A DNA stretch of 34,436 bases from assembly GCA_903919615.1 (NCBI GenBank), contig CAIXIX010000433.1, positions 1-34,436 of the forward strand, read 5' to 3'. Position 1 is the stretch's first letter, and each line of letters starts with the position of its first letter. The translations under genes and the position numbers were made by a program. Below, piece after piece: positions 4,251 through 14,690 of the stretch. Below the pieces are notes generated by a model. That model saw only the letters and a list, made by a program, of their open reading frames with translations. It did not search any database and was not told the DNA's origin. This DNA comes from an uncultured Chthonomonas sp. Its GTDB lineage: Bacteria; Armatimonadota; Chthonomonadetes; Chthonomonadales; Chthonomonadaceae.

Positions 4251-4958
4251 TTAGAGTTCCGTGATAAGCTGCGTCATGGTTACAAATCGCGCGTTCTTAC
4301 CCTTAAGATACTCTATGGTAGCGCTCAAAGTTGCAGCATTGTCCACGCAGTCGTGCAGTGCGAGATTCAATACTGGCGTAACCTTCAGTGTGGCATCAAT
4401 AATTGGTTTCAGTTTGTCGAAACCGCCGTCGAGATACCCCGATGCTCCATCGATGTTCGCAACGGGCAGTTCCCAAATCTTTGCGCTTCCCTGCTGATGG
4501 GGGTGGTCATAGGAGGGATGGTACGGCGCGACGGTTGAACCTGAGGGCCGACCTGTGGCTGATCCGGTAGAAGAGTCGACCATAATGCCGATATCTTCTA
4601 GCGCAGCGATGTCTCCCGCTTCAATATCTCCTTTTGCGGCGCGAAACGCTGTTGGTTTGATCGAGTAGGATTTCAGAATGTCTTTGCCGATTCGAATGAG
4701 GTCGCCGCGTGCTACTGTGTTGCTTGCGCCGTTGTCAAATGTGATGTAGAGACCGAGTTCATGCCAGGCGGGGATTTTGTGGAGGTATTCGTTGTGGTAA
4801 AGCTTTACGTTAGTCATCGGATCATGTTCAGTTACGCCAAGAAGCCACGTTAAGGGTATGGTGTACTTCTCGGCTGTATCCACAATCTCCGATACGTAGC
4901 ACTTTCCCTGCGCGGCGCAGACGCTGTCTACGCTAATGACCACGAGTGGTATGGGCAT
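4251..4958 (-). CDS. NodB-fold (polysaccharide deacetylase-like) protein with altered metal site
   Basis: A 235-residue protein with the order of motifs seen in polysaccharide deacetylases. A first strand VISVDS stands where TFDD is usual. IPLTWLLG stands for the ATFF strand, HELGLYITFDNG for the (G)HExGxHxxxH motif, FRAAKGD for the RxPxG motif, and LALHD for the terminal His motif. The usual Asp-His-His metal triad therefore looks replaced (D to S, H to Y, H to D). There is no signal peptide, so it is probably cytoplasmic. GGGAGGG precedes ATG 4958. It could be a non-catalytic or re-purposed member. The fold assignment is moderately sure; the reaction is unknown. Confidence 0.65.
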   Translation of the reverse strand: MPIPLVVISVDSVCAAQGKCYVSEIVDTAEKYTIPLTWLLGVTEHDPMTNVKLYHNEYLHKIPAWHELGLYITFDNGASNTVARGDLIRIGKDILKSYSIKPTAFRAAKGDIEAGDIAALEDIGIMVDSSTGSATGRPSGSTVAPYHPSYDHPHQQGSAKIWELPVANIDGASGYLDGGFDKLKPIIDATLKVTPVLNLALHDCVDNAATLSATIEYLKGKNARFVTMTQLITEL

Positions 4959-5142
4959 TGTAGTGTCCCTCCCTGTTCTGTTTTTATGCCTGCACTCTCA
5001 ACGTGGAGAGTGAAGGCTTGCTGCACGACTGTTATGGACCGTTTCTGCAACGATTCGCTTTACTCCTTCCCAACCTTAAAATGCGTGAACGATTTTCCAA
5101 CTTTCTGGCAAAGATGTGGATTAGACCACTCACAAAACAAAA

Positions 5143-5177
5143 ATCGGCCCGGAACTGCAATGCAGTTCCGGGCCGAT
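5143..5177 (-). terminator. Strong intrinsic terminator of the redox operon
   Basis: A perfect 17-bp inverted repeat with a single central base: left arm 5143-5159 begins ATCGGCCCGG, right arm 5161-5177 ends CCGGGCCGAT. On the minus strand it is followed by TTTTTGTTTT. It lies 44 nt after the stop of the last gene of the 5221-12203 operon and is the clearest transcription end in the window. Confidence 0.9.
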
Positions 5178-5220
5178 TGAACGTAGTCTATAGATTTATC
5201 TCGCTTGGGAGCGAAGAAGT

Positions 5221-6270
5221 TTACGCAAGGTGCGTTTCGAAGCCATCGATTCGAGCAACCTTGGGGCTTACGCCGCCGATGTTCTCTTCGAAGAGATCCA
5301 TGTTGCCAAGATTCGATACGCAGGTGCAGAAGATCGGCTTGCCGTCTGGCCGCTTCTCGTGCATCACTTCGCGAATAAGCGCGCGTCCGACTTTGCCGTT
5401 GGCCTTGAGCTCATCCATCTTCGCGACATCGGCTCTCATCTTGCCATTGCCGTGCGCGTAGATCTTCATTGCAACCATGGCGATACCGGCCTTGCTCGCC
5501 TTGGCGAACACTTCCTGAACTTCCTTGGGATAGCCATAGGAGTACCAGACCTGCATGGAGTCGACGACGCCGGATTCGATTTCAGCATTAATCAGGTCGG
5601 CGTAGCGCTCGATCTTCTCAGGGTTTCCCGCATCGCTGTTGGAGTACGGGTGCTGGGAAACTCCGAAATATCGAGCTTTGCCTTCCTTCTTCAGCTTTTG
5701 GAACACTTTGAAGGTGACATTGTCGCCCTTGTTGAATGATTCCAGGTTGTGCCAGCCGTAGTGGGCACGGTATACGTCGTAGTACTTCAGACCGTTGCGG
5801 TCGAGCGAGGAGACGACCTGGTTGTACGCTTCGTCAAAGTTGTTGGGGTCGTGGCCCGGAGACGTCGTATCAACCGTCATGTCGGTGTAGTAAGACTCGC
5901 GCGGTAGGGCCTTGACTGCGTCTGGAACGCGATTCCAGTAGCCGCCTTTGTGGATGAAGTTGACACCCATCTGAAGCGCCGGCGCCAGAAGTTCACCATT
6001 CCAGTCGGAGGACATACAGATCGGGGTCACCATCATCTTACCGTGCCGCTTGCCGTACGGAACTTTCGGCAGCGTGCCCAGCCCGTCTACGATGAGTTCT
6101 GCAGCCTCAGCGCGCTGCGATTGCGTAAGCGACATGCCCGTGAACGCTGCTGCTGCGAGGCCTGGTCCGGCGGCAGAGGCTACGGTTAGCACTTGCATGA
6201 AATCGCGGCGAGAAAGCGGCTTCTCGCGGGATATCGATTTGAGGCGATCCATCGATCCATCGGATTGCAT
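5221..6270 (-). CDS. Tat-exported aldo/keto reductase-like protein (copy 1)
   Basis: A 349-residue protein with an SRRDFMQV twin-arginine motif (residues 20-27), a hydrophobic Ala-rich segment and a cleavage site near AEA (residue 57). The mature part has the AKR barrel pattern: GVNFIHKGGYWN (102-113), YYDVYRAHYGW (163-173), YFGVSQHPYS (201-210) and repeated AxKASxAGI helices. In standard AKRs the first segment reads NxxDTAxxYG. Here Asp is His107, and no Lys is visible in the next strand (YYTDMTV); a His (170) is kept in the third. AAGGAG precedes ATG 6270. It is closely similar to the copy at 6803-7870 and is last in the operon. Function is probably extracytoplasmic, where NADPH is not available. 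Confidence 0.85.
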   Translation of the reverse strand: MQSDGSMDRLKSISREKPLSRRDFMQVLTVASAAGPGLAAAAFTGMSLTQSQRAEAAELIVDGLGTLPKVPYGKRHGKMMVTPICMSSDWNGELLAPALQMGVNFIHKGGYWNRVPDAVKALPRESYYTDMTVDTTSPGHDPNNFDEAYNQVVSSLDRNGLKYYDVYRAHYGWHNLESFNKGDNVTFKVFQKLKKEGKARYFGVSQHPYSNSDAGNPEKIERYADLINAEIESGVVDSMQVWYSYGYPKEVQEVFAKASKAGIAMVAMKIYAHGNGKMRADVAKMDELKANGKVGRALIREVMHEKRPDGKPIFCTCVSNLGNMDLFEENIGGVSPKVARIDGFETHLA

Positions 6271-6349
6271 AGTTGAAGCTCCTTAGAAACACTCATTTGT
6301 ACCCGATACATCAGGCACGGAATAGACGGCGCTGTGTGGCTTGGTGACA

Positions 6350-6724
6350 CTAACTGCCAGGATGGATGCCGCCCCAGGCGGCGCGTTTTAAGACGTGATC
6401 GAACTCAGAGCTATTCAGCATCAAGTTCATACGTTCGAACATTGGTAACGGAGCCAGCGAGCGCTCCGATCCGATAGATTCGCCCGTTCGGGCGTTAAAG
6501 ACCGCCGGCCAATCTCCCGCATCGCTCTGAGCCACCGTTAAAAGGTGGCCCACATGAAGTGCGCGTCCCAGTCGAGACGTGTCGGCTTCCGTGACCAGAT
6601 CGATCTGCGCCTGCATCGTTGATATCACGAACTCCATGGTGAGCACGTCCACGTCCGGTTCAGGCAGCGGGAAACAGTTAAACGCCCACTCCGGAGGCGA
6701 TAGAATCAGCTCATCTGGTTCCAA
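6350..6724 (-). CDS. Small protein of unknown function, 5' end uncertain (possible frameshift)
   Basis: An open frame of 124 codons starting at a TTG with no convincing ribosome site. It contains FPLPEPDVDVLTMEFVIS, a charged helix and a C-terminus ending GGIHPGS. I do not recognise it. There is no signal peptide or membrane segment in this frame. Immediately upstream, in a different frame, an ATG at 6788 only 14 nt after the previous stop opens a 25-codon peptide (MMQENRN... ending FIGTR) that stops inside the start of this frame. Joining the two by one base shift would give a single protein of about 148 residues properly placed in the operon. So this may be a frameshifted gene, a sequencing error or a short leader peptide. 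Confidence 0.5.
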   Translation of the reverse strand: MEPDELILSPPEWAFNCFPLPEPDVDVLTMEFVISTMQAQIDLVTEADTSRLGRALHVGHLLTVAQSDAGDWPAVFNARTGESIGSERSLAPLPMFERMNLMLNSSEFDHVLKRAAWGGIHPGS

Positions 6725-6802
6725 TGAAGATCCAAGTCTCCGGAAGTTCGCTCTGTTTAGGCACGATATTGCGATTTTCCTGCATCATGCAAGAATTATC
6801 TG

Positions 6803-7870
6803 CTAGGCGAGATACTCTTCGAAGCCATCAAGCGCGGCAACCTTCGGGCTGACACCACCGATGTTCTCCTCAAAGATCGCCTGGTTGTGCAGGTTTGAGA
6901 CACAAGTATGGAAGATCGGCTTGCCATCGCTGCGCTTGGTGGTCATCACCTGCCGGATCAGCGCTCGGCCAACCTGATCACCCGCCTTTAGCTCCTGCAA
7001 GCGTGCGGAGTCGGCACGCATTTTGTCGTTGCCGTGTGCGTATATCTTCATCGCCGTCATGCCGATTCCGGCGGCGCTTGCCTTTGCGAATACTTCTTCT
7101 GCGCCTTTGGGGTAACCGTACGAGTACCAGACCTGCATACAGTCTATCAGTCCGGAATCAATCTCTGCTTGTATGATCTCTGCGTACCGGTCCGCCTTTT
7201 CAGGATAAGATATGCCGCCTGACGCATCTACCGTTTTAGCATAAGGATGCTGAGATACGCCAAAGTACTTGACCTTGCCTTCCTTCTTCAATTTTAGGAA
7301 GGCTTTGTAAGAGGCATTGTCGCCCCCATTGAAAGCCTCGAGCCCGCGCCAGCCAAAGTGCGCTCGGAAGATGTCGTAGTACTTTAGCCCGTTGGCTTCC
7401 AGCGATTGGGTTACCTGATTGTAGGCCGCGTCGAAGTTATCCGGGTTGCGGGGCGTGTTATCGACGGTGATGTCGGTGTAGTAGGACTCGCGCGGCAGCG
7501 CTTTGATCGCATCTGGCACCGGCCCGCGCCTCCCCCAGTATCCGGCCTTATGGATAAAGTTGATGCCGAGCTCAACAGCAGGCGCGAACAGGTCTGCATT
7601 CCAGTCCTGACAGATACAGGTCCTGGTCACCATCATGTTGTCCATCTTTGTGCCGAACTTAACTTTAGGGAGCTTACCAAGCCCCTGAACAATCACCTCA
7701 GCCGCCTCGGCCCGCTGGCTTCGCGTAAGTGAAAAACCCGCGAAGGCAGTCGCGGCAAGGCCGGGACCGGCTGCGGCCGCCACAGTGGCAACCTGCATAA
7801 AATCTCTGCGAGAAAGTGGCCTCGATTGAGACTCTGTTCGAAGCGCATTCAGTTGATCGTCAGATTTCAT
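6803..7870 (-). CDS. Tat-exported aldo/keto reductase-like protein (copy 2)
   Basis: A 355-residue paralogue of the protein at 5221-6270, with the same SRRDFMQV Tat motif, signal region and barrel landmarks: GINFIHKAGYWG, YYDIFRAHFGW and YFGVSQHPY. The usual AKR Asp (in DTAxxY) is again His, and the catalytic Lys position is again not Lys. The shared substitution in both copies argues for a distinct conserved site rather than random decay. Compared with copy 1 it has short insertions (GRRGPVPD; a KTVDASGG loop). I chose ATG 7870, preceded by AGGGAG, over the GTG at 7900. It lies 36 nt after the polyferredoxin stop in the same operon. Confidence 0.85.
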   Translation of the reverse strand: MKSDDQLNALRTESQSRPLSRRDFMQVATVAAAAGPGLAATAFAGFSLTRSQRAEAAEVIVQGLGKLPKVKFGTKMDNMMVTRTCICQDWNADLFAPAVELGINFIHKAGYWGRRGPVPDAIKALPRESYYTDITVDNTPRNPDNFDAAYNQVTQSLEANGLKYYDIFRAHFGWRGLEAFNGGDNASYKAFLKLKKEGKVKYFGVSQHPYAKTVDASGGISYPEKADRYAEIIQAEIDSGLIDCMQVWYSYGYPKGAEEVFAKASAAGIGMTAMKIYAHGNDKMRADSARLQELKAGDQVGRALIRQVMTTKRSDGKPIFHTCVSNLHNQAIFEENIGGVSPKVAALDGFEEYLA

Positions 7871-7906
7871 CCTGTTGCTCTCCCTATTTTCGCGTTTCAC
7901 TCAGCA

Positions 7907-10072
7907 CTATGGACTGGGATTCGGGTTGTAACCGCCGGTTGGCGAGGCGCCTCCACTCGGGCCGCTGGTCGACTTATACAGTTCCAGCTCTTCCTTAACA
8001 GGGGCATAGTAGTCGTCCTTGCCGGCCTCTTTCCTGTTCTCCCAGTTTCGTCGGAAGAAACCATCAAATGGGTTCTCATGGGGCTCAACATAGGATCCGG
8101 GCTGGCCCGCTTTGTCCTGCTCTCCCCTATCCTCCTGGAAGGTATAGACGACGATCGAGTGATCCGGCAGAACCGGGCAATGGTACTCGCATATTCCGCA
8201 TCCGGTACACAGCTTCTCATCAACGGTGGGCACGCGCTTCACGCGACCACGGTTATCCTCTTTGCCCGCATCGTTCTTATGATCGATGGGCAGAGTCGGA
8301 TCTTTTGAGAGTGTATCGTCAAACGTATCCTTGAAGATAACCGCCGAGTACGGGCATACTTCTGCACAGACGATACAATCTCGGCCGCCGTTCCATGCAA
8401 CGCAGGTAGAACGATTGACGTTTGCAAGCCCCATCTTCAGCTTGTACCGTTTGTCCTGCCAGGTGAATGGCCGGATGGCTCCCGTTGGGCAGACATCTCC
8501 ACAGCTTGAGCACTTCTCGGCACAGGGCCCGATGCTGGGCACCAGAATAGGCGTCCAGAGACCCTGTAATCCTGTCTCCAGCGTCGCTGGCTGCAGCGCA
8601 TTGGTAGGGCACACCTTCATACACTCAGCGCACCGGGTGCATGCGGACAGGAACTCACTTTCCGGCAGCGACCCTGGCGGGCGCATCGCCTTGTTGTTGT
8701 GATGGTACCGGCGCATCGCACCCTGATAGTCTGCGGCGCTCCCACGAGCGGCGGAGCCCCACAACATGCCAGCGCCAATGGCAGCGACCACACGCCTCCT
8801 GCCAAGATCAATCTCGCTCTGTGGCTCTGGTCGCGGTGCCGATCCCTTTGGAGCCATTCCAAGCGCCTCTTTGATGCCTGCCGGGACCTTGGCTTGAATC
8901 TGAATGACATCGGTGGGACAGATGGTCTCACACCTGAAACACTGAATACACTCAGAGATGCTGTGCATCTCCTCGTAGGCAGCCTTCTTATCCAGGTTGT
9001 CGTAGCAGCCCATTCTCGACTGGATTTCGCACTTTTTGCAGTGGATACAGCCATCCATCTTGATGTAGTGACGAAGCCAGGAAACACGGGACACAAGTGC
9101 AAGCAGCCCGCCGTAAGGGCACAGGTTGCGACACCAGAACCGCTCCTGATAACCGGAAAGAGCGATGACGCCGATAAACATCAGCAGCACCGGCACACCA
9201 TTCCAGTAGGTGAGGTTCTGCATATGCCAGCCATCCATGTTACCGCCAAGGTTATAGATGACGTGGCCGACACCAGCATGATCTGCCACATTGAGCAGAC
9301 CATTCCAGATATAGGCCACAGGCGCATAGAAGCAGAACGTAAAGGTGCGGGTAATGAGGGAGATAGGGTCGCCGAATGTGAGAATATCGACGCCGAAGAC
9401 GATGGCGCCAATGCCAATCAGCAAGTACAGATACTTCCAGTTTCGGAATCGCCTTGTGTCGGATCGCTTTTTTGTGTAGAACAGGCGGCCTTTACGGAAG
9501 AGCAGCCTGTCCCCAATATCTATCGCAGTGCCAAGAGGGCAGATCCATCCGCAGAAAATACGTCCGCCCCACATCGTCAGGAGCAAAATGAAGACGCTTG
9601 GGCCAATCGCATAGACCGGCATTTTGTGCGAGGCAATGCTGTTCTTAAGCGTGTTCAAGAAGTCCATCGTCATGAACAGGTTCTTGGGAACACCGCCCCA
9701 GTTCTGGCTTGTCGCCGTAGTAAGGAAGAAGAACAGAACGAACAGGCAGAACAGAAATACCTGAGTTGACCGCCGGATTAGCACAATGCGATGAGACGCA
9801 GGATTGCCCGGCGCCTCCTTCATGCGTTTCTTCTGGTCTGCGGTAAACTTCGCAGCGGCAGCGGCCGCGCTCTCAGGCGTAGCCGTCATCAGTCTCACAG
9901 CAGGTGCAGCTCCAACGGATCCTGCTCCTCTCTGAACGACGCCAACCTGCCCGAGACCAATTCGGTTTGCGTCGGCAGAAGGTTTGGCGCTCTGTTTGCT
10001 CTTACAGCCGCAACCGCTTCCGCAGCCCCCGCCAGCGACCAATCCTCGTGGTGTTAGCGGTATATCCGCCAT
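7907..10072 (-). CDS. Fused NapH-NapG-like membrane polyferredoxin
   Basis: A 721-residue protein. Residues 17-23 form a Cys-rich CGSGCGC cluster. Four or five membrane spans lie at about 103-122, 155-169, 213-233, 240-260 and 293-307. Within this part are the NapH/NosR/CcoG-type motifs CGWICPLG (174-181) and CRNLCPYG (314-321), then two [4Fe-4S] motifs (CIHCKKC..., CIQCFRCETICP) at 342-385. Residues 424-446 (GRRRVV then a hydrophobic stretch) look like a retained Tat/anchor segment. The rest holds four more cluster motifs (CTRCAECMKVCP, CAEKCSSCGDVCP, C...CIVCAEVCP, CTGCGICEYHCP), the exact NapG/MauM arrangement. Known NapH and NapG are separate proteins passing electrons from quinol to a periplasmic acceptor. 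GGAG precedes ATG 10072. Confidence 0.9.
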   Translation of the reverse strand: MADIPLTPRGLVAGGGCGSGCGCKSKQSAKPSADANRIGLGQVGVVQRGAGSVGAAPAVRLMTATPESAAAAAAKFTADQKKRMKEAPGNPASHRIVLIRRSTQVFLFCLFVLFFFLTTATSQNWGGVPKNLFMTMDFLNTLKNSIASHKMPVYAIGPSVFILLLTMWGGRIFCGWICPLGTAIDIGDRLLFRKGRLFYTKKRSDTRRFRNWKYLYLLIGIGAIVFGVDILTFGDPISLITRTFTFCFYAPVAYIWNGLLNVADHAGVGHVIYNLGGNMDGWHMQNLTYWNGVPVLLMFIGVIALSGYQERFWCRNLCPYGGLLALVSRVSWLRHYIKMDGCIHCKKCEIQSRMGCYDNLDKKAAYEEMHSISECIQCFRCETICPTDVIQIQAKVPAGIKEALGMAPKGSAPRPEPQSEIDLGRRRVVAAIGAGMLWGSAARGSAADYQGAMRRYHHNNKAMRPPGSLPESEFLSACTRCAECMKVCPTNALQPATLETGLQGLWTPILVPSIGPCAEKCSSCGDVCPTGAIRPFTWQDKRYKLKMGLANVNRSTCVAWNGGRDCIVCAEVCPYSAVIFKDTFDDTLSKDPTLPIDHKNDAGKEDNRGRVKRVPTVDEKLCTGCGICEYHCPVLPDHSIVVYTFQEDRGEQDKAGQPGSYVEPHENPFDGFFRRNWENRKEAGKDDYYAPVKEELELYKSTSGPSGGASPTGGYNPNPSP

Positions 10073-10136
10073 CTGTCTATCTCCAACGGCCCCTGTGCAG
10101 GCGCCCTGATTGCATCAATGGTGATTTGCTGCGGCG

Positions 10137-11201
10137 TCAGGCGCCAGCAGGTCCTGCGATCTCTTTAACATTCAGCTGACTCGTATCGATCTGTCCTCTG
10201 CCCAGGCTATTCGCCAGCACCAGATGATTTACATCACCGGGGGATACGCTCTTCGTCGTGAGAAATCTGCAGCAATAAGAATCAAGCGCGACCGGATCGA
10301 TTCCGGCGACTACCTTATGGGGAGTGGTCACCTCGCCTGGTCCCTTCGGGCCTCGCGTCTGAAGCGCTCGCGTCGCATCCGTTACGATCAGCGTCGGCTT
10401 AATAAAGCAGTTGAGCTCCGCGATGCAATCGTGGAGGCCATAGCGATGGTAGTCCTTGCGATTCCAGATATTGCCCATTAGCTTCTTCATCGCGATCGTA
10501 ATGGTGGCCGCTTCGTGATCCTTAACGACAGGATTAACGATGAAGCAGTCCGCCTCCATAATGTCGTGAGGAATGTGCTGATCGATCTGGTTGAAGTGGT
10601 GACGCGCATCATACTTCTTGCCATCTGTTGTCAAGGAAGGCACAAAGGAGGGGATATCGACGGCCTTGTACATCGTCACCTCGGTCGGCGACAGCAGTTT
10701 TGCCTTTGTTCCCTTGACCGCGCCATTGGCGCCGCATATTTCAAAGGCCATCTTCCAGTCGTCGAGGGTGTAGTCGATGCAGGTAATCCTGGATGCGCCT
10801 GCGCGCTCGCAAAGCTGAACCAGCCTTCGGAGAACATCCGGGTGAGTCGCGGCAGCCTGTTCTGGCGTGCGCATCCAGCCCATATTGGGACTAATAACGA
10901 CCTTGTCACCCTTCTTAACGAATCTTTCGATGCCGCCAAGCTCATTGATTGCTCGCTCGGTGATGTCGCCATATGTTTGCGGGTTGCCCTCAACGCAGAC
11001 AATATCCGGGGTTTGCGGAGTGGCTTTCGTGGGTGGACGGATACCGTGTGGCACCGCAAAACCCTCTTTGTTAAACCAGCTAACACCGTAGATACCGCCA
11101 AGCAGCGCCGTACCGCCCGCAATTTCAAGGAACTTGCGCCTGGACGCTTTGCGGTCCTCCGGCTCAATTGGCGCACCTGTTATGGATCGTACGTCATTCA
11201 T
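10137..11201 (-). CDS. DUF362 domain protein with Tat signal
   Basis: A 354-residue DUF362 protein. ASRRKFLE at about residue 19 followed by a hydrophobic Gly/Ala-rich helix is a Tat signal or membrane anchor. The DUF362 core shows VVISPNMGW, ASRITCIDYTLDDW, DCFIVNPVVKDHEAATITIAMKKLMGNI and a terminal GIDPVALDSYCCRFL segment. DUF362 proteins often accompany ferredoxin-type modules but their chemistry is not established. This copy has no CxxCxxC cluster of its own, so Fe-S centres would be supplied by the adjacent polyferredoxin. It follows the DUF6599 gene after 18 nt and precedes the polyferredoxin by 64 nt. Confidence 0.88.
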   Translation of the reverse strand: MNDVRSITGAPIEPEDRKASRRKFLEIAGGTALLGGIYGVSWFNKEGFAVPHGIRPPTKATPQTPDIVCVEGNPQTYGDITERAINELGGIERFVKKGDKVVISPNMGWMRTPEQAAATHPDVLRRLVQLCERAGASRITCIDYTLDDWKMAFEICGANGAVKGTKAKLLSPTEVTMYKAVDIPSFVPSLTTDGKKYDARHHFNQIDQHIPHDIMEADCFIVNPVVKDHEAATITIAMKKLMGNIWNRKDYHRYGLHDCIAELNCFIKPTLIVTDATRALQTRGPKGPGEVTTPHKVVAGIDPVALDSYCCRFLTTKSVSPGDVNHLVLANSLGRGQIDTSQLNVKEIAGPAGA

Positions 11202-11219
11202 GATGTGCCTCCATGCTAA

Positions 11220-12203
11220 CTAACCAGCCTTGGCAGCGGCCGCTTTCACCAAGCCTGCAGCAGCAGCCTGGCTCTTTGCATCATCCGCTACACTTCGAAT
11301 ACCGATCAGGGTCTTTCCCTTTACCGCAGCGATAACCACGCCCGTAAACTTTGTCTTGAGCGAAATTGCTTTGTCGCCAAGCCCGGCAGGGGCGGCAACT
11401 TTACCGCCATTGGCGATGTTAGACGGCTTTGTAAGATACGCAGAGTACTTTGTGAACGCCTCTTTTGCAGCCGATGCCGACGGATACTGCGCAACGAACA
11501 TCTCAGCCTGCTGACCCGCCGACGGATATCTTGCGACCATTCCGTTGCGAATGTAAGACTGTGCCGCTATGTCTGAAAGACGGTACTGCTCCGTCCTCGG
11601 AGTAAAACCCGATGGTAGGGTCTTAACAATTTCTGGAAGCGCGGTGGACCCCGATAGTTTACCAGCGATCGCCGCAGCTATCTTTGGCATCACCGCCTGA
11701 AATGGCGCCTTGTTGGATGCTGTTATTGCGAGCCGTACATAGTACGGCCCCTTCCAGAAATTAAGCGCCGTCGACTCTTTGTATCCCTCTGCGCCAATCT
11801 TTACGATTGCCGCGCTTGGGCTTCTCTGGCTCGAGTAGTACCCATAGGCCTCCGTCGGAGACCCAAACTGAAATACATCCGCCGTCATCAACTGATTTCC
11901 AACGCCACCAGGCGCATATTCAGCGTGGGCACATTCCTTCACGTTATATCTGCGCAGCGCTTCGGCCTCGCCATCCAGCAAGTTTTCAAGAGAGGAGGGC
12001 GTAAACATTGCGATACCGGTTTTGGTGATCTTGAAGCTGTCTGCAGCCGCTGGCAGTGAACCCTTTGTATCGGCTCGGGCATTCGTCAGTAGAACTGCAA
12101 CAGCTCCTGTCACGACCAGAGCGAATCCCTTTCGAACCGCATTCCTAACGACTCCCGCACTTTGCGAAGATTGGAATGATGCACTGCTGCTAATAACGGA
12201 CAT
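11220..12203 (-). CDS. DUF6599-like exported protein, first gene of the redox operon
   Basis: A 327-residue protein with an uncleaved-looking or long signal (hydrophobic FALVVTGAVAVLLT, then ARA at about residue 44). The mature part contains LENLLDGEAEALRRYNV, matching the GGAELYxxYGF-type helix of DUF6599 proteins. DVFQFGSPTEAYGYYSSQR follows, and two alpha/beta halves repeat this pattern (MFVAQYPSASAAKEAF in the second). The C-terminus is Ala/Lys rich. GAGGAG precedes ATG 12203. The family function is unknown, but it commonly sits beside DUF362 and 4Fe-4S genes. The position suggests a periplasmic accessory or substrate-binding role, which is inference. Confidence 0.75.
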   Translation of the reverse strand: MSVISSSASFQSSQSAGVVRNAVRKGFALVVTGAVAVLLTNARADTKGSLPAAADSFKITKTGIAMFTPSSLENLLDGEAEALRRYNVKECAHAEYAPGGVGNQLMTADVFQFGSPTEAYGYYSSQRSPSAAIVKIGAEGYKESTALNFWKGPYYVRLAITASNKAPFQAVMPKIAAAIAGKLSGSTALPEIVKTLPSGFTPRTEQYRLSDIAAQSYIRNGMVARYPSAGQQAEMFVAQYPSASAAKEAFTKYSAYLTKPSNIANGGKVAAPAGLGDKAISLKTKFTGVVIAAVKGKTLIGIRSVADDAKSQAAAAGLVKAAAAKAG

Positions 12204-12512
12204 CCAAACGCTCCTCTAGGAATTTCGGCGCAGATTGAAGGAAACGGGAGTTTATCAACTTTCGCTTTGGAACTCCGTTTTGCGCCGTAATCAATACAGT
12301 GTGATGAGGGCGATTGGCAGGAAGAGAGCCCGCCTCACGTAGGCGTGATCACGCTCTGCTTATCTATACCCTCATAGACGCGGCTGATGCGTAAAGGTTG
12401 CATCATTCGTCGCGGAAAAACAAATCCTCGTGAATGGTTATTGTACAGGTTTTGGAAGCTGAGTGTCAATCGCGAAGGTCGAGGCATGCATAGTGCCCGA
12501 AATATATGTGTG
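12204..12512. other. Intergenic region carrying the probable redox-operon promoter
   Basis: About 310 nt without a supported gene, between the phosphoesterase-propeller gene and the DUF6599 gene, both on the minus strand. It should hold the end of the first transcript and the promoter of the six-gene operon. The only distinct element I see is the 12-bp palindrome at 12343-12354. No clear T-run terminator is visible. Confidence 0.5.
12343..12354. promoter_or_regulatory. Palindrome GCGTGATCACGC upstream of the redox operon
   Basis: A perfect 12-bp dyad about 140 nt upstream of the DUF6599 start. A further TCACG half-site lies just to its left (TCACGTAGGCGTGA). It resembles a transcription-factor operator with TGATCA core, but the factor is unknown and the distance from the start codon is large. 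Confidence 0.3.
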
Positions 12513-14690
12513 CTACTTTACGACTCCTGGCCCATTAATCGCCTGCACATCGTCTGCCATGGTGGTTGTGTAGAGCAGATTGCCATCATATTCCGGCGTG
12601 GAGTAGATGTTGCCCGGGCCAAGCTCATATCCCCACAAACGGGTTCCATCTGCGTTGTTCAGGATGGAGCAGTGGCCACGGATACCCATGATCGCCACGC
12701 TTCTGCCATTCTGAGCTGCCCGTGCCGAAACTCCTTCGAACCGCTGACCTGTGATTGTTCGCCATTCCAGCGTCCCCGAAGTGCCGTTGACTGCATACAC
12801 ATCGCCGTTTGGCCCAGTGCCCGGCACGATGACATTTGTGCCGCACAAGGTTGGCGAGCAGGTTCTGAGAGGGTCCATTTCTCCACCGGGCCGCCAGAAC
12901 CACTTCTCCGCGCCTGTAACACTGTCGAGACAGTAGAGGGCGCCGTCTTGAGCTGCGACATAAACTCTTCCTGCGGCTACACCGGGAGCGGTGGACGAGC
13001 CGGTGTTCGCGGCTGAGCTTTTCGCGAACTTCCAACGCACGGCGCCCGTAAGCGCCTCTGCGGCATAAGTGGTTCCCGATGATGAGGTCACATAGAAATA
13101 CTCATCATCCGTGACGACACTGGAAGTGAAGGGACCTGCAGCGTCAATATGCCACTTCTCAACTCCAGTCTCAAGATCGATACCGACGATACGGTTGCCA
13201 CTTGGCACGCAAACTGTGCCATGCGCTGCCGCAGCAGTTGCATAGATCGTTTCGTTCGATTCCCATTTCCATTTTAGCCTGCCGGCATTTGCTCCGTTAG
13301 CCTCGATTGCGTACAGCGTTCTATCCGTTGAGCCGGCAATGACAAGGCCACCGAAAACCACCGGAGATGTGACAAACGAGCCCTTAGCCGGAAAAATCCA
13401 GTGTCGCTTACCCGTTGCCGTGCTGCAGGCGTACACCTTGCCATCGAGAGCAGTAACGTAGAGCGAGTCGCCGTTAAGACAAGGGCTTGTCTGTATTGGC
13501 GCGGGCAGGTCGATAGCCCAGCGTCTTGTAGGCTCTCGACTGTCCCGCTCAACTTCAAATATCAGCTCTTCTAAGAAGTTGAGACCGCCTGAAGTTGTAA
13601 TCCGCAGGTCAGAAGAGTGAATTCCAATGCTAAGGTCTCGCGTAGGAAATACATCCGACCAGATGTCTCGGCGATCTTTTGTCAGAGGTTTCCATGGGCC
13701 GCTATCAATCCGGTACTCCCCCTTCTCTTTATCCGGATTGTCTGATACAGCCCGGGGAGATAGTGTGGCTGCTGGCCGCTTGCGAGCCAGGAAAGGAATA
13801 TCTGGATCGTCCCACGCTGTCTTGATAGACGAAGGCTTACTCTTGGGATTGGCTGGCAGTGAGACAAGATGTTCCGGCTTACCCGTACCCGTGATTTCAA
13901 TCCGATCAACCGTCACGATTGCCGGCGTTGCTGTAACTATGAGAGCGGACTGCGACGATAGCGGGCGACTGCCAAAGACCATCGTTCCATTTAGTGAGAA
14001 CGAGGTGTCGTGCGCAGGATCTCCCGTGAACACCGCCACGACATTGTGCGTTTTCAGGTGCGCCATGAGCTCATAATCGTTATCGAAAAGACGTGTGGCA
14101 GGTGATTCTTGAGCGATGGGGTGTGTTACGAACAAGAGGACGGGTTGTTCTGGGCGCACTCGTTTGAGATCGCGATCCAGCCAGTCGAGCTGCGCTTTGT
14201 CTACATGCCCCTCTACCCTATTCGCAATCGTCGTGTCCAGAAGTACAAAATGAGCGGCGCCTAGATCAAACGAATGGTACAGATGGTTGAAGACCCGAGC
14301 GAAGGGCTCCTTCCCCGGAGCGAGGGGAGATACATCTGACGGACCCGGACAAGCGTAGATAGGTATCCCGGCGTCTGCAGACTGCTTCACCGTTTGCTTA
14401 ACGCGTTCAAAATCTGCTGCGGATCCCGAAGCGGTGATATCGCCAAGAACCAATACAAATGTTGGCTTTTGTTTCAGCGCCGAAGTACGATTAAACAGGG
14501 GCGCGAAAACGTCTGGCCCATTCGCAGATTGATGCGGACTTGCGACAATAACAAGGGAGACCACCCCATTTCGGTCGTCGCTCTTCTGGGGCGCTGCACG
14601 GCTTACTGTGGAGAGTTGTGTGGCAGCGACCACGAGCGCTGCCACAAATACATTACGGAGTCGCCAATTCAGTAGAGAAGCATCGTTCAT
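12513..14690 (-). CDS. Exported metallophosphoesterase-like/PQQ-type beta-propeller fusion
   Basis: A 725-residue protein with a signal peptide (about 1-32). Residues 44-265 follow the calcineurin-like phosphoesterase order but with changes: SPH (51-53) stands for DxH, GD is kept (83-84), GPSD (116-119) for GNHD, VTH with H190 is kept, and GDPAHD (223-228) for GHxH. The two-metal centre is therefore incomplete. After a linker, residues from about 388 to the end form a PQQ-like/BamB-type propeller with repeated blades such as DGKVYACSTATGKRHWIF and DGALYCLDSVTGAEKWFW. These blades may bind a protein, polymer or quinone. The gene is 90 nt downstream of the SHOCT-like gene and about 310 nt upstream of the redox operon on the same strand. 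Confidence 0.82.
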   Translation of the reverse strand: MNDASLLNWRLRNVFVAALVVAATQLSTVSRAAPQKSDDRNGVVSLVIVASPHQSANGPDVFAPLFNRTSALKQKPTFVLVLGDITASGSAADFERVKQTVKQSADAGIPIYACPGPSDVSPLAPGKEPFARVFNHLYHSFDLGAAHFVLLDTTIANRVEGHVDKAQLDWLDRDLKRVRPEQPVLLFVTHPIAQESPATRLFDNDYELMAHLKTHNVVAVFTGDPAHDTSFSLNGTMVFGSRPLSSQSALIVTATPAIVTVDRIEITGTGKPEHLVSLPANPKSKPSSIKTAWDDPDIPFLARKRPAATLSPRAVSDNPDKEKGEYRIDSGPWKPLTKDRRDIWSDVFPTRDLSIGIHSSDLRITTSGGLNFLEELIFEVERDSREPTRRWAIDLPAPIQTSPCLNGDSLYVTALDGKVYACSTATGKRHWIFPAKGSFVTSPVVFGGLVIAGSTDRTLYAIEANGANAGRLKWKWESNETIYATAAAAHGTVCVPSGNRIVGIDLETGVEKWHIDAAGPFTSSVVTDDEYFYVTSSSGTTYAAEALTGAVRWKFAKSSAANTGSSTAPGVAAGRVYVAAQDGALYCLDSVTGAEKWFWRPGGEMDPLRTCSPTLCGTNVIVPGTGPNGDVYAVNGTSGTLEWRTITGQRFEGVSARAAQNGRSVAIMGIRGHCSILNNADGTRLWGYELGPGNIYSTPEYDGNLLYTTTMADDVQAINGPGVVK

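Follow-up and report, generated by a model that had tools for sequence, protein, structure and literature searches.

Aldo-keto reductases (AKRs) are textbook cytosolic enzymes that work with nicotinamide adenine dinucleotide cofactors, NAD(P)H, and the locus described here raises the question of what such a fold might be doing when it carries a twin-arginine translocation (Tat) signal and is encoded beside a membrane polyferredoxin. The locus is a run of six minus-strand genes (positions 5221-12203) in a 34,436-nucleotide (nt) stretch of DNA from an uncultured Chthonomonas sp. (contig CAIXIX010000433.1), the whole of which we call the window. It encodes a DUF6599 protein, a DUF362 protein, a NapH-NapG fusion (NapHG), and two exported AKR-fold proteins (AKR1 and AKR2) on either side of a small protein. 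Our answer, to which we give a probability of roughly one half, is that the operon is an envelope electron-transfer system joining the quinone pool, the iron-sulfur (Fe-S) clusters of NapHG, an exported AKR-fold protein and a small-molecule substrate.

The gene set is far from a chance assembly, because close NapHG (at least 64% identical) is distributed exactly like the exported AKR and the small protein, all three occurring in the same 18 of the 291 Armatimonadota genomes surveyed. The Fisher value for this co-distribution is 5e-29, a figure that overstates the number of independent events, the genomes being kin. Presence and absence of the set alternate inside three families, and same-family members that lack the AKR (g4, g7, g8 and g11) also lack close NapHG and DUF6599. 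The order DUF6599-DUF362-NapHG-small-AKR is kept in families f1, f2, f3 and f5, with NapHG-AKR-small in f7. An earlier sequence-only reading of this DNA had staked itself on the genes being kept together in other genomes, and these survey data, with mostly the same order at each locus, bear that out. The same reading had placed two AKRs around the small protein. Both are present in the window, but the tandem arrangement was seen in the window genome only, where AKR1 and AKR2, 69% identical, are the only such copies; a 77%-identical AKR occurs in a metagenome-assembled genome named Chthonomonas.

The DUF6599-DUF362-NapHG core is probably older than its tie to the AKR. More distant NapHG is found in 81 genomes, DUF6599 occurs in 87 and 63 have both (odds ratio 27), DUF362 adjoins NapHG at the majority of the distant loci examined, and a second DUF6599 gene lies beside a Tat-signal DUF362-like gene in the window genome and its sister G001 (L074 5480-7341 and L075 5978-7896), all of which argues for an earlier origin of the core. 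A plasmid collection held no relative of the AKR or of DUF6599, and its NapHG matches, in Bacteroidales plasmids, reached no more than 25-28%. At four loci a ParB-like gene is inserted between DUF362 and NapHG (L032 16550-17356, L052 7748-8506, L053 3171-3986 and L054 4468-5223).

The assignment of the exported proteins to the AKR family is weak by sequence and firm by fold. AKR1 (6803..7900, minus strand, 365 residues) matches PF00248 at E 2e-7 and was placed by ortholog alignment; AKR2 (5221..6270, minus strand, 349 residues) matches at E 1e-8 and was studied through an AlphaFold2 model, a fold search and residue mapping. The model, with a mean predicted local distance difference test score (pLDDT) of 86.7, agrees with the Pfam match in indicating a (beta/alpha)8 AKR barrel, and VIA-align places AKRs on it at Z about 21 and a root-mean-square deviation of 3.1-3.3 over some 240 residues. 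The catalytic tetrad Asp-Tyr-Lys-His, a point absent from the sequence-only reading, is not retained. In AKR2 the Asp is replaced by H107 and the Tyr by W112, the Lys is lost (with D134 nearby), and only the His, H170, is kept; among relatives W, Y or F occupies the Tyr position, and separate alignments agree on H107 for the Asp, on H170 as the catalytic His and on the absence of a Lys from strand 3. When compared with AKR11 and L-galactose-dehydrogenase members (PDB 1ynp and 7ezl), the window proteins share the barrel and the catalytic His, whereas they are Tat-exported, carry His in place of Asp and Lys in place of Thr, do not keep the Tyr or the Lys, and have an altered C-terminal NADP motif. 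Within that motif E329-N330 is kept, as is Q240 elsewhere, while the usual G-x-x-T/S preceding E-N is changed.

Nine residues (H107, K108, Y111, D134, H170, W173, H207, Q240 and K269) are invariant in 16 aligned orthologs, and by homology they would lie at the mouth of the active site. The retention of H107, K108, D134, H170 and H207 across divergent proteins suggests a reworked site rather than decay. As a separate observation, seven f1 relatives encode a canonical cytosolic AKR with a full catalytic tetrad just upstream of the small gene (L032 10127-11128, there next but one to it; L033 7817-8857; L047 6846-7916; L034, L036, L037 and L038); the window genome holds no close ortholog of it, the best match being 47%.

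The nearest relatives of the window AKRs, found by profile search, are Tat-exported AKRs of other families that carry a C-terminal 2x[4Fe-4S] ferredoxin domain, an architecture we take to be COG1453-like. The two groups share descent: besides common ancestry they have SxH and MK motifs and proximity to DUF6599 in common, and many of the fused proteins are likewise exported by Tat; they differ in that the window AKRs lack the C-terminal domain (no Cx2Cx2Cx3C motif, against two in the nearest relatives) and stand beside NapHG instead. The His-Lys (HK) replacement, with His in the place of the tetrad Asp, is common to five ferredoxin-fused AKRs, one of which (L069, contig cut off) shows no Tat motif. 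In the maximum-likelihood tree the HK ferredoxin-AKRs join the window type with support of 99/98, and two of them form its sister with moderate support (89/78). The tree is midpoint-rooted, and the order of events that we infer would follow the graded series seen in a residue table, from a cytosolic ferredoxin-AKR with a full tetrad, through an exported ferredoxin-AKR with a full or nearly full tetrad and then an exported ferredoxin-AKR with HK, to the exported HK AKR without ferredoxin that is tied to NapHG.

Since these relatives carry a fused ferredoxin, the gene-fusion argument points to an AKR barrel that exchanges electrons with Fe-S clusters. DUF6599 directly adjoins a ferredoxin-AKR at eight loci in several families, where a rough null expects about 0.06, and at L077 a Tat ferredoxin-AKR is divergent from DUF6599-DUF362-NapHG. 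A gene upstream of DUF362 at L061 was considered as DUF6599-like and set aside, having no Pfam support.

The putative electron donor is a 721-residue polyferredoxin (7907..10072, minus strand), identified by NCBIfam NapG and NapH matches together with motif and hydropathy analysis. Its N-terminal, NapH-like part has four Sec-type transmembrane (TM) segments, with two Cys groups predicted to face the cytoplasm; an internal Tat motif (GRRRVVAAIGAGMLWGS, with its RR at residue 425) then precedes a NapG-like Fe-S tail whose four Cys groups would be periplasmic, so that the dual Sec/Tat layout is found in one chain. Every one of the 16 full-length proteins of the module retains the internal motif. 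The same layout characterises the NapH-NapG fusion of MLMS-1, which was shown to need both Sec and Tat, with a Tat-dependent last segment (Tooke et al. 2017, PMC5449189); both have four Sec TM segments and cytoplasmic Fe-S groups, a twin arginine before the fifth, Tat-dependent segment and a periplasmic polyferredoxin tail (the last two predicted in the window protein). In the window the fusion is accompanied by an exported AKR, DUF362, DUF6599 and the small protein. Characterised NapGH passes electrons from quinol outward, according to work cited in PMC5449189. The window protein resembles this quinol dehydrogenase of nitrate respiration in its NapH and NapG homology and in a predicted quinone-to-periplasm Fe-S path, and differs in being a single fused chain and in lacking NapA, NapB and NapC in the operon; molybdopterin-family genes (PF00384 matches) occur on other contigs of the genome. 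Before the first TM segment, at NapHG residues 14-26 (about 9995-10033), there is a Cys/Gly-rich stretch (GCGSGCGC) seen mostly in family f1.

The two genes at the head of the operon encode candidate exported partners. The DUF362 protein (10137..11201, minus strand, 354 residues; PF04015, E 5e-40) has the N-terminal twin-arginine motif SRRKFLEIAGG, and such a motif is present in nearly all relatives. DUF362 belongs to Pfam clan CL0471 with LarA (PMC11770544); the window protein has a clear DUF362 domain, adds the Tat motif, and gives no indication of a nickel-pincer cofactor. The DUF6599 protein (11220..12203, minus strand, 327 residues) has a Sec-type N-terminus and an equally clear domain (PF20244, E 1e-45).

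The small protein (6350..6724, minus strand, 124 residues from an uncertain TTG start; placed by alignment and a structure model) occurs only with ferredoxin-less AKRs, and for this reason the simplest guess is that it is a helper of theirs. Eight residues are invariant in 18 sequences (W13, P19, H57, H60, Q66, W72, P92 and E107), including an HxxH motif. It has no Pfam or NCBIfam match, and Foldseek returned none for its model at E 0.001 or better. The model (pLDDT 93) resembles four helices taken from an (alpha/alpha)6 toroid, aligning with part of GH76 at Z 11 over 123 residues (VIA-align); with four main helices it falls short of the complete six-hairpin barrel of GH76, GH47 or AGE. No redox-enzyme chaperone fold is among its structural matches, an absence that is not decisive. 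Two genomes encode longer, toroid-like proteins that weakly match its profile (L072 6161-7735 and L071 5554-7281), the first of which has further weak matches to GH88, GH127 and GH47.

In the model that we propose, NapHG in the inner membrane would swap electrons with the quinone pool and relay them through about six [4Fe-4S] clusters towards the periplasm, where the remodelled AKR-fold protein would dock on it, exchange electrons and act on a small-molecule substrate, probably as a quinol-fed reductase. DUF362 and DUF6599 would be exported partners of this Fe-S/AKR pair, and the toroid-like small protein might aid AKR folding or export, or travel with the AKR. Candidate AKR cofactors are a bound NADP, a flavin, or a metal held by H107, D134, H170 and H207. 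The case for an Fe-S/quinone supply rather than NADPH comes from the loss of the tetrad Asp, Tyr and Lys, the ferredoxin-fused relatives and the perfect co-distribution with NapHG. On these three grounds that part of the sequence-only reading, which had proposed a quinol-fed, NADPH-free periplasmic oxidoreductase, is supported, while oxidoreductase activity and outward electron flow stay putative. More tentatively, and at less than even odds, we suggest that the NADPH-type site of this AKR lineage was rebuilt (HK/D/H/H) to take Fe-S electrons, from its own ferredoxin first and then from a separate, quinone-linked NapHG.

Several observations weigh against the proposed electron-transfer system. 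Each mechanistic step is inferred, on sequence and model grounds. Fe-S clusters carry single electrons and AKR chemistry moves a hydride, and therefore an additional two-electron cofactor would be needed. Five genomes (G002, G003, G005, G012 and G014) carry the module in two unlinked parts, on two contigs in the drafts and about 1.7 Mb apart in G003, whose genome is a single contig. An export signal is missing from the small protein, which thus cannot act outside on its own. Furthermore, positions that contact NAD(P) in ordinary AKRs are retained at Q240 and at the C-terminal E329-N330, and the exported AKR may therefore bind a nucleotide. This last point lends something to an independent mode of action, in which the AKR is exported with tightly bound NADP(H) and works apart from NapHG. 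Glucose-fructose oxidoreductase is exported in just this state, and the Tat pathway moves folded, cofactor-loaded proteins. Given the replaced catalytic Asp, Tyr and Lys, the absolute co-distribution with NapHG and the ferredoxin fusions of the relatives, we nevertheless regard it as quite improbable. The split loci, together with the tandem AKR of the window genome alone, could likewise be read as a sign that unrelated exported proteins merely share an operon. The conservation data contradict this, with identical distributions, an order conserved over five families and independent DUF6599-AKR and DUF6599-DUF362-NapHG linkages, and we give it hardly any credence.

Two further alternatives, both unlikely in our judgment, deserve more weight than these. 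The loss of three tetrad residues is also compatible with a non-catalytic protein, and the AKR fold might bind a ligand or act as a sensor or structural subunit, leaving the redox work to NapHG and DUF362. Three of the four tetrad residues are gone across the aligned orthologs, and SmbA, an AKR-fold receptor for signalling by cyclic di-guanosine monophosphate (c-di-GMP) and guanosine tetraphosphate (ppGpp), is among the best structural matches to the AKR2 model (Z about 21). Its match is, however, no better than those of true AKRs, with which it is tied, and the new invariant residues at the AKR active-site position, as well as the ferredoxin domains of the relatives, count against this reading. 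The other alternative reverses the flow: the exported AKR would oxidise a periplasmic substrate such as a sugar or an alcohol, and electrons would pass via NapHG into the quinone pool. In its favor, sugar dehydrogenases (L-galactose dehydrogenase) are the closest relatives in sequence among solved structures, and Chthonomonas, to which the genome is related, has been described as scavenging carbohydrates (PMC4959169). The outward flow in characterised NapGH points the other way, and the sequence itself has no feature that sets a direction.

The six genes form a real operon, with a good match to a promoter at one end and a strong terminator at the other. A promoter-like site (TTGACA-18-TACAAT, 11/12; 12440..12469, minus strand; a match to the sigma-70-type consensus only) lies about 240 nt upstream of DUF6599, the first gene, and the promoter scan gave no minus-strand match within the six-gene span. 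An intrinsic terminator (5142..5178, minus strand; 17-bp stem and T-run, dG -33.6 kcal/mol, z -7.6) follows the last stop by 43 nt. The sequence-only reading had the shared strand, the span of all six genes and this terminator right. It had given the gaps as 18-79 nt, which holds for four of them (18, 64, 78 and 79 nt, in order), but the third, between the 64- and 78-nt gaps, is 6 nt, or 36 nt when counted to the ATG at 7870, the better-placed and likely start of AKR1. Its gene identities were borne out by Pfam and NCBIfam, that of the AKRs by fold, and so was its count of five proteins of six as exported or membrane-bound: Sec-like signals, Tat motifs or TM helices are predicted in all except the small protein. 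TatC is encoded in the same genome. Rfam and tRNA scans of the window found no RNA family and no tRNA.

Directly upstream on the same strand (12513-14690) is a gene for a metallophosphatase-like domain fused to a BamB/PQQ-type beta-propeller; as it sits on the far side of the promoter match and did not turn up at related loci, we do not count it as a member. The downstream gene (4251-4958) encodes a 235-residue protein that looks polysaccharide-deacetylase-like by eye, with no Pfam or NCBIfam match. A gene of this kind often adjoins the exported AKR in family f1 (seven relatives), but the window copy follows the terminator and no such gene was seen at the loci outside f1, so it was also left out.

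Both the domain families and the NapH-NapG fusion are already known, and we class the set, as a probable variant, with the membrane Fe-S electron-transfer systems, its AKR branch being unusual. The open-access literature yielded no description of the gene set or of exported HK-type or ferredoxin-linked AKRs, no paper on DUF6599, and few on DUF362, none with a function. The statement of the sequence-only reading that no characterised pathway has this set thus holds for the open-access literature as regards the set, though not for the NapH-NapG fusion itself (PMC5449189). The locus offers a concrete partner set, and hence a testable role, for DUF362 and DUF6599, and a natural setting for NapH-NapG fusions other than nitrate respiration. 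If our reading is true, exported AKRs with a dismantled tetrad and a dedicated polyferredoxin would show the AKR fold repowered outside the membrane, a new way of driving AKR-fold chemistry beyond the cytoplasm, where NADPH is absent.

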